NCBI GenBank assembly: GCA_035691485.1
Contig: DASSIZ010000003.1
Coordinates: 1 to 64,000, forward strand
Direction: 5' to 3'
Source of the DNA: Terriglobales bacterium
GTDB taxonomy: Bacteria > Acidobacteriota > Terriglobia > Terriglobales > Acidobacteriaceae
DNA: 64,000 nucleotides
Below are positions 1 to 55,860 of this stretch, piece by piece (within the stretch, counting starts at the first letter, position 1; every line of letters begins with the position of its first letter). The notes below the pieces were generated by a model. That model saw nothing but the letters and a program-made list of their open reading frames with translations. It made no database searches and was not told the DNA's origin. A program made the position numbers and the translations under genes.

Positions 1-12
1 ATTTCCAATGCA

Positions 13-71
13 TGTCATCCCGAGCGGAGCGATCCTGAGCCTGAGCTTACGAAGGCGAAAGGGACCCCTAC
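13..71 (-). repeat. Left inverted copy of the GIY-YIG-flanking repeat
   Basis: Read on the minus strand this begins GTAGGGGTCCCT and ends CGCTCCGCTCGGGATGACA. Both ends match the two copies at 367-417 and 428-478, which lie in the opposite orientation on the other side of the small nuclease gene. The middle (about 27 bases) differs from those copies. The last base of the repeat directly abuts the ATG of the nuclease gene. Confidence 0.85.
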
Positions 72-425
72 ATGCGCCAGAGACGTTTCTATGTGTACAT
101 CATGGGCAGCTTGTCAGGAACGCTGTACACGGGAATGACGAATAATCTGCACAAGCGAGTGTGGCAGCACAAAGAACAGGAGATGGAGGGATTCACCGAC
201 GAGTATGACGTCGACCGCCTGCTCTACTGGGAATCTTTCGACGATGTTCGAGTCGCCATTAATCGCGAGAAACAAATTAAGAAGTGGCGCCGCGACAAGA
301 AAGTCATGCTGATTGAGCAGCTGAACCCGAGCTGGAAGGACCTGGCCCGCGAGTGGTACGAAAAAAGTAGGGGTCCCTCGACTGCGCTCGCCGCGGCTCG
401 CTCCGCTCGGGATGACAGGAGTTAA
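72..425 (+). CDS. GIY-YIG nuclease family protein (117 aa)
   Basis: Small single-domain protein of the YhbQ/UPF0213-like GIY-YIG group. The N-terminus carries the two signature strands (YVYIM at residues 7-11 and LYTGMTNN around 18-25), followed by HKRVWQHK with the conserved Arg. The usual C-terminal part of the domain is present (WESFDDVRVAINREKQIKKW). Family members are usually about 90-100 aa. Here the last roughly 19 residues, from about residue 99, are encoded by the first copy of the downstream repeat, and the stop codon falls just after it. The ATG sits directly against the upstream inverted repeat, so no Shine-Dalgarno of its own is visible. A role in DNA cleavage is inferred from the family; the substrate is unknown. 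The inverted repeats suggest the gene may be part of, or dependent on, a small mobile or repeat-maintaining element. Confidence 0.85.
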   Translation: MRQRRFYVYIMGSLSGTLYTGMTNNLHKRVWQHKEQEMEGFTDEYDVDRLLYWESFDDVRVAINREKQIKKWRRDKKVMLIEQLNPSWKDLAREWYEKSRGPSTALAAARSARDDRS

Positions 426-478
426 GAGTAGGGGTCCCTCGACTGCGCTCGCCGCGGCTCGCTCCGCTCGGGATGACA
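367..478 (+). repeat. Two tandem 61-bp copies of the GIY-YIG-flanking repeat
   Basis: Copies at 367-417 and 428-478 are identical over 51 bases and are joined by a 10-base link, giving a period of 61. Each starts GTAGGGGTCCCTCGACTGCG and ends CTCCGCTCGGGATGACA. The first copy overlaps the 3' end of the nuclease gene. They are inverted relative to the copy at 13-71. With only two copies and no variable spacers this is not a CRISPR array. Confidence 0.9.
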
Positions 479-499
479 TGAGTTAAGACGTAGTGGGTT

Positions 500-518
500 C
501 GCGCTCGGGGCGAGCGCG
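500..518. other. Hairpin downstream of rseP
   Basis: An 8-bp perfect stem (CGCGCTCG / CGAGCGCG) around a GGG loop lies 37 bases past the rseP stop codon. No T-run follows it on the minus strand, so it may be an RNA-stabilising or weak terminator structure closing the uppS-cdsA-dxr-rseP operon. The assignment is tentative. Confidence 0.35.
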
Positions 519-554
519 CTCCAACATCGAGGGCGGCTGCCGCAACGCGAGTTT

Positions 555-1892
555 TTACGGTAACCGCTGCAAGCTCGGGATCGTCTTGGCCAGATCGTTG
601 TAGATCACGATCACAGCGAACAGGATCAGCAGGACGAAGGCGAGCTGGTAGATGCGTTCCTTCAGGTGAAGGCTGATGTCGCGGCGGCGGATGGCCTCGA
701 TGGCGAGGAACAGGATCATGCCGCCGTCCAGGATGGGAAACGGAAACAGATTGAAGATCGCCAGGTTCAGGCTGATCGCGGACATCAGTGCGATCAGCGG
801 CGTCCAGCCGGGCTGGCGCGCCGCCTCTCCCGCCGCCTGCCCAATTCCGATGGGGCTGGAGAACTGCTTGACCGACACTTTGCGCTGCACCATCTTCTCG
901 ACCAGTTCGATGATGAGGAAGGAATTCTTCTTGTTCTGGTCGAGCGATTTGGCCAGGGCCTTGCCGAAGGGGAGCCTGTCGACGTGCTGAGGATCGGAGC
1001 GAATGCCGATCCGCCACATGTCCTGGCCGTTATTGTCCTTGGTCAGCGTCGGGGTGACGGTGAAATTCAGTTCTTTGCCGTCGCGCACAACCGTCAGGCT
1101 GAGCGGCTTGTTCTTATTGGCCTGAATTTCGCGGATGACGGACTGCATGGAACGCGTCGCCTGGCCGTTCAAACCGACAATCGTGTCTCCGATACGGATG
1201 CCGGCCTTGGCCGCGGGCAGGCTGGGCTCGACGTCGGTCACCGTGTTCGGCTGATCGGGAAGCCAGCCGGGATTGCCGAACTCCTCGGGACCGGTGGGAG
1301 TCGGGACAATGGTTTTTTCCAGGACCTGGTTGCCGCGCTGGAGGGCGACGCGAACCGGCTGTCCGGGGCTCATGACCACCTTGGGCAGCACATCTTCCCA
1401 GGTCGGATTCTGCATGTTCTCAATGCGGACGATGCGGTCGCCGGGCTGAATGCCCGCTTTTTGCGCGGGAGAGTTGTCGAGAACCCAGCCGATGACGGCA
1501 GGCTGGTCAAGGTAAACCGGGTGCTCGTAACGGACCATGAAGACGCCGGTCAGCAGGGCGATGGCGAGCACGATGTTGGCGAAGGGCCCGGCAAAGGCAA
1601 TGATGAAGCGCTGCCAGCGAGGCTTGGAGGTGAACTCGCGCGGGTCGCCGGTGTGGGCTTCCAGCGGATTTTCTCCCGCCATCTTGACGTAGCCGCCGAA
1701 GGGCAGGGCATTGATGCGGTAATCGGTTTCGCCCTTCTTGATCCCGAAGAGCCGTTTTCCGAAGCCGATGGCGAACTGCTCCACCCGGACGTCGAACAGT
1801 TTGGCTGCGGCGAAATGGCCGAACTCGTGGACCACGATCATGATCCCGAGGACGACGGCGACGGCCGCCAGGTCGACAAAGAAATTTTCCAT
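555..1892 (-). CDS. rseP: RIP zinc metalloprotease, site-2 protease family
   Basis: Intramembrane zinc protease of the RseP/S2P family (445 aa, normal length). It cleaves single-pass membrane proteins, classically anti-sigma factors. The HEFGH zinc motif lies in the first membrane segment (residues 22-26). Two PDZ domains follow in the middle, at roughly 115-200 and 205-290. The second active-site motif, LDGG, is in a C-terminal membrane segment (FPFPILDGGM, about residue 385), with a last hydrophobic helix at the end. The ATG at 1892 is preferred over a TTG one codon upstream. It is last in an operon with uppS, cdsA and dxr, an order also seen around rseP in many bacteria, and starts 25 bases after dxr ends. 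No anti-sigma substrate gene is visible nearby. Confidence 0.95.
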   Translation of the reverse strand: MENFFVDLAAVAVVLGIMIVVHEFGHFAAAKLFDVRVEQFAIGFGKRLFGIKKGETDYRINALPFGGYVKMAGENPLEAHTGDPREFTSKPRWQRFIIAFAGPFANIVLAIALLTGVFMVRYEHPVYLDQPAVIGWVLDNSPAQKAGIQPGDRIVRIENMQNPTWEDVLPKVVMSPGQPVRVALQRGNQVLEKTIVPTPTGPEEFGNPGWLPDQPNTVTDVEPSLPAAKAGIRIGDTIVGLNGQATRSMQSVIREIQANKNKPLSLTVVRDGKELNFTVTPTLTKDNNGQDMWRIGIRSDPQHVDRLPFGKALAKSLDQNKKNSFLIIELVEKMVQRKVSVKQFSSPIGIGQAAGEAARQPGWTPLIALMSAISLNLAIFNLFPFPILDGGMILFLAIEAIRRRDISLHLKERIYQLAFVLLILFAVIVIYNDLAKTIPSLQRLP

Positions 1893-54559: not shown

Positions 54560-54607
54560 AGGACCCCCACGGTAGAACCCTTCAGTATAGCGGGGAGCAG
54601 AGGAATA

Positions 54608-54687
54608 AAGAATTAAGAAGTCAGAATGAAAGATGCTGCAATTACGGAATGACTTCTCACTTCTTCATTCTGCATTCTTCATTCTGC
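54608..54687. repeat. Inverted-arm element with AGAATGAA motif
   Basis: The left arm 54608-54636 (AGAAGTCAGAATGAAAGATGC within it) and the right arm 54651-54687 (CTTCTTCATTCTGCATTCTT within it) are inverted versions of the same simple motif. The thiolase stop codon and its last codons (Ser-Ala-Glu) are within the right arm. Confidence 0.7.
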
Positions 54688-55860
54688 ACTCTCGAGGGCC
54701 AGGGCCATTCCCATTCCTCCGCTGACGCAGAGGGTGGCAATGCCGCGCTTCGCCCTGCGCTTGAGCATCTCGTGCAGCAGCGTGACCGTGATGCGCGTGC
54801 CGGTACAGCCGATGGGATGGCCGAGGGCGATCGCGCCGCCATTGACGTTGAGCCGGCCGCGATCAAAGTGCATTTCGCGATCGCACGCCAGCACCTGCGC
54901 CGCGAAGGCTTCGTTGAGTTCGATGAGGCTGGCAGAGGCGGGCGAGATCCCGAATTTCTGCTCCAGCTTGCGCAGCGCCGGAACCGGTCCGATACCCATG
55001 TAGCGCGGATCCACGCCGGCCGTGGTCGCGGCGAGAATACGGGCCAGCGGCTTCTGTTGGTGCTGCTTCACAAATGATCCAGAGGCCAGCACCACGGCGG
55101 CGGCGCCATCGGTTATGCCAGAAGAGTTGGCGGCGGTGATAGTGCCGGTTTTTGAAAATACCGGAGGCAGCTTAGCCATTTTTTCCAGGGTTGCGCCAAG
55201 GAATGGGTGCTCGTCGCGCGTGACCACCTGCGTGCCTTTCTTGCTCGCGATGGTCACGGGCGCAATCTCGTCGTTAAACCTGCCGCTGTTGAGCGCTCGC
55301 TCCGCCCGCTGCTGCGAGCAGAGCGCGAACTGGTCCTGCTCCTCGCGCGTAATCCGGTATTTATCGGCCAGCAACTCGGCGGTCTCGCCCATCACCATCT
55401 TGGACATGGGGCAAAAGAAGCCGTCGCGATACATGCCGTCTACCAGTTCGGTGTCGCCCATCCGCAGGCCCCAGCGCGCGCCCTCGAGATAGTAAGGCAG
55501 ACGCGACATGGACTCGGTTCCACCGGCAAGAACCACAGCCAGGTTGCCGTGTGCGATCTCCTGCCAACCCAGCGCAATGCTCTTCATGCCCGAGGCGCAT
55601 GCCTGGTTCACCGTATACGCCGGAACAGAATCGGGCACTCCGGTTCGAATGGAAATCTGGCGAGCGGGATTGGGCCCTCCGCCAGCCTGGCGGGCGTTAC
55701 CGAAAATTGTTTCTTCCACCTGGTCCGGGCTGACGCCGGCACGTTCCAGCGCGGCCTTGGCGGCGACCACTCCCATGTCGGCGGCCGACAACGACGCGAG
55801 CGCCCCACCAAACTTGCCGATCGGCGTGCGCACTGCGGAAAGTATGAAAACGTCGCTCAC
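54679..55860 (-). CDS. Acetyl-CoA C-acetyltransferase (thiolase)
   Basis: A 393-aa thiolase from a GTG start. The acylated Cys is in NQACASGMKSIALG (near residue 88). The C-terminal active-site His and Cys are in NVNGGAIALGHPIGCTGTR and LCVSGGMGMALALE. VFILSAVRTPIGKFGGALAS is the N-terminal signature. It joins or splits acetoacetyl-CoA. The product of the upstream HMG-CoA lyase pathway (acetoacetate) could feed it, but the genes are 40 kb apart. It is divergent from rlmB. The last three residues are repeat-derived. Confidence 0.94.
   Translation of the reverse strand: MSDVFILSAVRTPIGKFGGALASLSAADMGVVAAKAALERAGVSPDQVEETIFGNARQAGGGPNPARQISIRTGVPDSVPAYTVNQACASGMKSIALGWQEIAHGNLAVVLAGGTESMSRLPYYLEGARWGLRMGDTELVDGMYRDGFFCPMSKMVMGETAELLADKYRITREEQDQFALCSQQRAERALNSGRFNDEIAPVTIASKKGTQVVTRDEHPFLGATLEKMAKLPPVFSKTGTITAANSSGITDGAAAVVLASGSFVKQHQQKPLARILAATTAGVDPRYMGIGPVPALRKLEQKFGISPASASLIELNEAFAAQVLACDREMHFDRGRLNVNGGAIALGHPIGCTGTRITVTLLHEMLKRRAKRGIATLCVSGGMGMALALESAE

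Follow-up and report, generated by a model that had tools for sequence, protein, structure and literature searches.

REPtrons, the closest described systems, consist of a gene for an HUH tyrosine transposase (RAYT, or TnpA-REP) that is framed by inverted, GTAG-tagged palindromes (REPs). Many further repeats lie solitary in the genome, often as inverted dimers (REPINs), while the enzyme genes are few and not amplified. In the excerpt of a 2013 survey used here, REPs are sorted into a GTAG and a CGTC superfamily, and it is the GTAG repeats that RAYTs flank (PMC3733652). According to the same excerpt, the CGTC superfamily is found in five phyla and includes dRS3 of Neisseria and the rickettsial RPE-4 and RPE-6; its repeats have a tag that is often TGTC, a stem starting with AT, an unpaired tail and loops of 4-5 nt, and they predominantly form head-to-head dimers (PMC3733652). 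It is also stated there that no transposase seems to be dedicated to CGTC repeats, and that REPtrons of this type may have vanished early (PMC3733652); the string GIY has 0 occurrences in the text of that survey. A 2006 survey of GIY-YIG proteins reports, in the part used here, the recent insertion of a GIY-YIG domain into a restriction gene, and this part does not mention repeats (PMC1564403). Among the matches listed for the open-licence literature, no paper links GIY-YIG genes to REP, REPIN, RAYT, dRS3 or RPE repeats. What appears to be new in the following is the pairing of REPs with an unrelated enzyme; the REP/RAYT pairing and the CGTC repeats are already known.

Here, we describe a small GIY-YIG gene whose surroundings resemble a REPtron in layout. 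Inverted tagged palindromes frame the enzyme gene, further repeats lie solitary in large numbers, often as inverted dimers, and the enzyme genes are few and not amplified; the enzyme is of the GIY-YIG type instead of an HUH tyrosine enzyme, and the tag is CGTC/TGTC instead of GTAG. Thus, the flanking inverted repeats and the dispersed cognate copies by which a REPtron is recognised were found, and the HUH transposase gene was not. We consider it probable, at about two chances in three (0.65), that the nuclease is a cognate REP-processing enzyme, analogous to the RAYTs though unrelated to them, and that the locus represents a REPtron-like unit of this gene and its TGTC/CGTC-tagged REPs; we infer cutting and movement from the analogy.

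The DNA analysed, called the window below, is a stretch of 64,000 nucleotides. It opens at the end of contig C3, which is part of a 3.84-Mb genome in 145 contigs, and sequence to the left of base 1 is therefore not visible. The unit has the following features:

13..71, minus strand: left TGTC-tagged REP, with the tag TGTCATCCCGAG outermost at 13 and the inner tail AGGGACCCCTAC at 60-71 abutting the ATG; inverted-repeat pairs I1, I2, I5 and I6
72..425, plus strand: GIY-YIG nuclease gene, 117 aa (PF01541, E=1.4e-14), stop TAA at 423-425
367..417, plus strand: right REP copy 1, with the inner tail GTAGGGGTCCCT and the tag end CTCGGGATGACA outermost, overlapping the 3' end of the reading frame
428..478, plus strand: right REP copy 2, tandem duplicate of copy 1 with period 61; repeat family D1, 97% over 61 nt

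An earlier note on this DNA had described a nuclease gene framed by inverted repeats, with the left copy ending exactly at the start codon. Direct reading of the four features bears this out, as the left REP stops one base before the ATG at 72. The same note had placed two tandem repeats over the stop codon and had let them code for the last ~19 residues. The tandem arrangement and the coding stand; the stop, on the other hand, lies within neither copy but in the 10-nt spacer between them (418-427). Hence, copy 1 encodes most of the last 19 residues, which derive from it and from a few flanking bases. Recurrence of both repeat ends was also found as claimed, with three occurrences each in 64 kb against a chance expectation of 0.04 and 0.19 (up to 3 and 1 mismatches allowed, respectively).

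Beyond the unit, the 13-mer TGTCATYCYGAGC occurs 42 times in the window's genome, 3 of these inside the window, and about 10 of 20 fetched places of the 10-mer CGGGATGACA elsewhere in this genome are, judged by eye, solitary repeats of the same kind. The genome holds one stand-alone GIY-YIG gene; of two further matches, one lies in a frame of 616 aa that presumably encodes UvrC, and the other scores below the cut-off. A known Rfam RNA was rejected as the identity of the repeats, since a search of window positions 1-800 gave no RNA family match at E<=1. Two minus-strand frames (114-479 and 304-1017) are long spurious ORFs created by the repeats, with peptides such as CHPERSEPRRAQSRDPYF; repeat-made ORFs of this kind are a likely source of false gene calls.

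The only Pfam hit of the window protein is PF01541, with 54.6 bits against a cut-off of 22.6, and no NCBIfam family scores above its cut-off for this protein. The conserved domain covers approximately residues 1-98 of 117 (a 98-aa core). Nine alignment columns are invariant in 26 of 26 aligned relatives (Y9, Y19, R29, H33, K70, W72, R74, L80 and N85), and E66 is kept in at least 90% of the 26. By their match to I-TevI, we take Y9, Y19, R29, E66 and N85 to be the catalytic positions. Judged from its sequence, the protein is a member of the GIY-YIG superfamily and a predicted nuclease with conserved catalytic-type Tyr, Arg, Glu and Asn residues. The only two solved proteins found to match are 1zg2 (BH0048, E=3.9e-11) and 1ywl (EF2693, E=6e-7), both belonging to UPF0213, the YhbQ-like small GIY-YIG proteins, for which the literature consulted mentions no link to repeats. 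Homing endonucleases of the I-TevI type share the catalytic superfamily and are selfish elements as well; in contrast to them, the gene studied here is framed by palindromes, and no added DNA-binding domain, intron or intein was found. The ratio pN/pS between orthologous copies is 0.14 in Shinella and 0.37, 0.00 and 0.19 among three Sphingobium sequences, which suggests purifying selection on the nuclease gene from four comparisons, three of which share sequences.

The repeats follow the consensus YGTC-AT-N1N2-YGA ... GAR-N2'N1'-A(T/C)C-tail. The variable positions N1N2 are complementary to their partners in 174 of 190 repeats of the Acidobacteriaceae-like family (at most 109 in shuffles) and in 194 of 205 repeats of a set from other groups (at most 76), and the Y:R pair of the stem covaries likewise. 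Together with the CGTC/TGTC tag, the AT at the stem start, the unpaired tail and the occurrence of some head-to-head dimers, this complementary stem agrees with the CGTC-tagged REPs. The centres, however, measure 5-81 nt in the family (median 23.5), as compared to the loops of 4-5 nt given in the excerpt of the 2013 survey; we therefore call the family repeats TGTC-tagged REP-like and do not file them in any of the four families of that survey (PMC3733652). By contrast, the repeats around the gene in Azospirillum, Neisseria, Sphingobium and Shinella are, judged by eye, of the short-looped CGTC type.

Around the nuclease genes, the centre of each repeat is complementary to itself rather than to other copies (median self score 0.24 versus -0.06), and 89 of 128 such centres lie above the 95th percentile. 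The effect is weaker in the small solitary sets of two genomes (4 of 14 and 7 of 23). Centres that are hypervariable between copies and yet self-complementary within each copy, e.g., at L056-L135, look like new palindromes made per event. Solitary repeats are mostly intergenic (by eye, no count), and 38 of 102 solitary tags in five genomes belong to dimers under 135 bp. In genome G028, the solitary copies are often inverted dimers of 70-90 bp that run tag, stem, tail, short spacer, tail, stem, tag, and such a dimer is the nuclease unit minus the gene. A different arrangement was observed in genome G011, where five repeat tags of the same orientation follow each other at an exact spacing of 36 bp as a tandem array (contig C30, ~54603-54759, L350).

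At E<=1e-8, relatives of the nuclease were found in 61 of 100 genomes of the family, with 0-9 copies each, some of them broken. We studied 80 family loci, which are the best-scoring regions among these relatives, weaker places being left out. The tag YGTCATNNYGA lies within 300 bp of the gene in 74 of the 80 and on both sides in 66. A locus-specific oddity is rejected on the basis of these counts. Within 300 bp the tag reaches a density of 4.14 per kb, compared to 0.153 per kb at 600-1500 bp, and the repeat is thus not found at random distance from GIY-YIG genes, an outcome that the earlier note had named as one that would speak against its proposal. Likewise, the motif GGATGAC drops approximately 20-fold, from 5.4 (upstream) and 4.8 (downstream) per kb within 100 bp to 0.26 and 0.23 at 1.6-5 kb, and its copies within 400 bp point mainly outward (56 of 80 upstream, 55 of 75 downstream). 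The best inverted arms around the gene have a median score of 22. At 71 of 80 loci they score above the maximum of single-base shuffles (13), and at 56 above the best score of the far flanks (17; n=68, median 9.5). Compared with the right flanks of all 80 loci, a left flank matches that of its own locus best in only 31 cases, and in 51 the own right flank is among the top three. As in the window, the right repeat begins before the in-frame stop in 38 of the 63 loci that have a full downstream repeat.

The inverted arms are a feature shared with insertion sequences; copies within a genome are, in contrast, not near-identical. For 58 within-genome pairs of nuclease genes the median identity is 52.7% and the maximum 86%, as against 52.3% between genomes, where it should be kept in mind that many genomes are draft assemblies, which are able to hide identical copies. 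Since copies within genomes are as diverged as those between genomes, the gene is not seen to be amplified in the manner of an insertion sequence. A gene that is not amplified, accompanied by numerous repeats, is what one would expect if the enzyme acts in trans, as RAYTs do. Two nuclease genes side by side, with starts ~600 bp apart, were observed at L064 (genome G018) and at G027:C11 369713-370615, possibly as a tandem duplication of the unit.

The pairing extends to other bacterial groups. The wider set comprises 80 relatives from other groups, the best of at least 577 found by a contig scan when ranked by similarity to the query alignment; because the members of this alignment come from repeat-framed loci, the set may lean towards a repeat-associated clade. 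By our count, the record titles name 22 phylum-level groups. A tag occurs within 300 bp at 70 of the 80 loci and on both sides at 53. With 74 of 80 loci in the family and 70 of 80 in the wider set, the flanking is not unique to one locus, the other finding that the earlier note would have counted against itself. Three loci with short flanks were dropped from the inverted-arm test. Arms above every single-base shuffle were found at 58 of the remaining 77, and arms above the far-flank maximum (13) at 56; at least one locus with arms above all shuffles exists in 21 of the 22 groups. A relative of the nuclease is also encoded in 34 plasmid records, 11 of which were fetched for the gene; some of the remaining ones came up again as relatives. 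Inverted arms score at least 17 at 9 of these 11 plasmid loci, the shuffled maxima in the two larger sets being 13 and 12.5, and eight of the nine carry a CGTC/TGTC tag (Planktothrix, Azospirillum, Neisseria, Spirosoma, Sphingobium, Shinella, Aeromonas and Novosphingobium). The ninth, on a Sinorhizobium plasmid, has inverted arms made of a different repeat, and no such repeat was found at the plasmid genes of Photobacterium and Rhizobium K1/93 (the unframed loci being L137 and L141). Phage records gave 2 weak nuclease matches. On plasmid p1 of Planktothrix agardhii (L136), the neighbours of the GIY-YIG gene are an MmeI-type restriction-modification gene on one side and, on the other, drmA of the defence system DISARM.

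Repeats and proteins match each other. Repeat similarity tracks protein similarity between genomes with a Spearman coefficient of 0.267, which 0 of 1000 permutations reach, and within genomes with r=0.54 (58 pairs). Solitary repeats were taken from CCC-tag places in genomes G063, G011, G026 and G018 and from the listing of the 13-mer in G028. When the tails of these repeats are compared with those around nuclease genes, the tails of the resident nuclease rank 1 of 38 in G011, 1 of 36 in G026, 4 of 30 in G028 and 7 of 30 in G063; G018, with three copies, fails this test (26 of 36). In Sphingobium, the tail CCCGCT is common to the solitary dimers and the repeats of the nuclease. The fraction of CCC-type repeats in the nuclease flanks is not significantly correlated with that in the rest of the genome (r=0.33, p=0.07, n=32).

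Genomes with the nuclease also have more repeats. In the 100 family genomes, the number of 13-mer copies per genome ranges from 0 to 196, and the reversed 13-mer was found no more than once per strand. The median is 42 copies in the 61 genomes with a nuclease and 8 in the 39 without (p=3e-8), and after subtraction of four copies per nuclease gene it is still 32 versus 8 (p=2e-5), both comparisons being uncorrected for phylogeny, genome size and assembly quality. Gene copies and repeat copies per genome show a correlation of 0.58, uncorrected for relatedness. In turn, repeats are also present in 34 of the 39 genomes that lack a nuclease at E<=1e-8, and six of these genomes have 41-154 copies. 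A renewed profile search of seven nuclease-less genomes at E<=1 gave no match in six and a stretch of 29 codons in the seventh (G001, E=0.002).

The strongest adverse result is the presence of repeats without a nuclease, as in genome G032. This genome is one complete contig with 154 repeat copies, it has no nuclease match at E<=1, and Y1_Tnp genes are present. The 20 repeats fetched from it (L366-L385) are all monomers, 15 of which share a CCCTA tail; most appear intact by eye, and many have copy-specific palindromic centres. Head-to-head pairs number 0 among 50 listed places in G032, compared to 20 among 100 in G034, a genome with three nuclease matches, so that the contrast is one between one genome of each kind. 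We used the counts from the listings here, as part of the regions fetched from G034 had been chosen for showing a pair and their 9 of 20 is not a fair dimer rate. Repeats may persist after loss of the nuclease while dimers disappear; alternatively, monomers may be spread by something else.

Orthologous sites with and without the unit were compared in four cases. In Azospirillum lipoferum 4B the unit lies between sufB and sufC, the gene having a whole head-to-head repeat dimer on either side. Among 12 records with a query coverage of at least 80%, the 11 besides 4B are aligned in the flanks alone, and no such repeat was found at the site in the four fetched records without the gene. In Sphingobium, 7 of 11 records with at least 80% coverage have the gene. 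Two gene-less plasmids keep one symmetric REP composed of the left part and the right part of the flanking repeats (plasmids compared: L172, L173 and L143), which could be a deletion scar between CCCCGGG motifs or else a pre-insertion site; TYG72, TYG65 and S. herbicidovorans have no REP at this site. In Shinella, two occupied plasmids with two repeats per side were aligned with two empty plasmids of more diverged flanks, and the repeats are absent from the aligned empty sites. The window's own site, downstream of rseP, carries the unit only in the window's genome among 30 rseP loci: 27 others show neither a tag within 1 kb nor a GIY-YIG hit, and two further ones lack downstream sequence. Four Sphingobium plasmids compared over 50 kb contain two solitary dimers of the appropriate type; in two relatives, one of these is absent or altered, with no clean boundary. 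Taken together, presence and absence at orthologous sites indicate that units are gained or lost whole, the intergenic flanks of occupied and empty sites in Azospirillum, Shinella and Sphingobium being too diverged to fix boundaries or a target-site duplication.

By analogy, we propose the following mode of action. The nuclease would recognise the folded repeat as a hairpin or cruciform, with tag and inner tail providing specificity, and would cut it. Cutting would allow pairs of inverted repeats to be excised, copied or converted to new places in trans, similar to the presumed action of RAYTs on GTAG REPs. The nuclease gene itself would spread rarely, as part of the repeat-flanked unit. In this way, the nuclease may be the missing machine that spreads or maintains the palindromic repeats. 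The earlier note had suggested a unit similar to REP and RAYT with a different enzyme class; in its layout this holds, with repeats on both sides that are mostly tag-outward, many solitary repeats, few nuclease genes and matching ends. That the unit is mobile or maintains its repeats, as also suggested there, receives indirect support from presence and absence of the unit at three plasmid sites, from the matched ends and from the higher repeat numbers in genomes with a nuclease; cleavage and movement themselves stay at the level of the analogy. More tentatively, at somewhat less than even odds, GIY-YIG nucleases might be the missing enzyme of the CGTC superfamily. They would then form a second, independent repeat-mobilising system in about 20 phylum-level groups, based on a hairpin-cutting nuclease instead of an HUH transposase, in which the copy-unique, self-complementary centres would be renewed per event by fold-back repair after hairpin opening. 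GIY-YIG genes of Neisseria, Azospirillum and Sphingobium are framed by repeats of the CGTC type. With the gene framed by CGTC/TGTC repeats in Acidobacteria, Alphaproteobacteria, Neisseria, Chloroflexi, Cyanobacteria, Patescibacteria and others, there is a concrete candidate enzyme, which could be tested with one small protein and one oligonucleotide hairpin. If the proposal is true, a partnership of a nuclease and a selfish palindrome arose at least twice, from unrelated enzyme folds.

Two other explanations keep the nuclease active on the repeats and give it a different role. The nuclease might cut solitary REP dimers so that its gene is copied between the halves via repeat homology, the repeats themselves being spread by something else. 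GIY-YIG enzymes are classic homing nucleases (PMC1564403, part used here), the gene of the Acidobacteriaceae-like genomes sits at the position of the spacer of a solitary dimer, as expected of a homing gene that interrupts its own site, and two gene-less Sphingobium plasmids keep a single symmetric REP. The layout does not fit Azospirillum and Shinella, with a whole dimer or two repeats per side and no such REP in the aligned gene-less sites; moreover, the protein consists of the catalytic domain only, without the NUMOD domains that the same part of the survey gives for bacterial homing enzymes (PMC1564403). An indifferent freeloader would also not explain the similarity, in four of five genomes, between solitary tails and the tails that belong to the resident nuclease. 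All in all, we regard such a freeloader as unlikely. Still less probable is a role in host maintenance, in which the nuclease would safeguard genome stability by resolving or trimming hairpins and cruciforms of REPs, the adjacent REPs would be regulatory, and the repeats would not be mobile through the nuclease. It would suit the repair nucleases Slx1 and UvrC among the superfamily relatives (PMC1564403, part used here), the purifying selection suggested by the four comparisons and the lack of amplification within genomes. The patchy distribution with several broken copies, the sites inside gene clusters (sufB-sufC, mmeI-drmA) and the polymorphism of whole units, however, look selfish rather than domestic.

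The remaining explanations take the nuclease out of the process, and the REP-processing reading is preferred over all four alternatives. Short genes and repeats both gather between genes, and an intergenic hot spot would agree with the mostly intergenic solitary repeats; this hardly deserves credence, and we reject chance in view of the end-match expectation, the outward orientation and the inverted arms, to which the correlation of proteins and repeats and the low tag density in the far flanks can be added. It is also highly improbable that RAYT-type or other transposases move the repeats with the GIY-YIG gene as a passenger. Of 60 family genomes, 52 do contain Y1_Tnp genes, which are of the RAYT type; the genome of the window is one of the 52, and such genes are also present in G032, where repeats occur without a nuclease. 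Nevertheless, a tag lies within 300 bp of 0 of 24 complete Y1_Tnp loci of the family (6 of 30 were dropped, as they are cut by contig ends), as opposed to 74 of 80 GIY-YIG loci, a control that likewise argues against chance and by which RAYT is rejected as the flanked enzyme. According to the excerpt of the 2013 survey, CGTC repeats were not found to frame any gene for a tyrosine transposase, and their associations with transposases of other classes were only a few and fortuitous (PMC3733652).

As an observation apart from the repeats, family genome G059 has 42 Y1_Tnp matches, two of them of equal score, suggesting an active expansion of the IS200/IS605 type.
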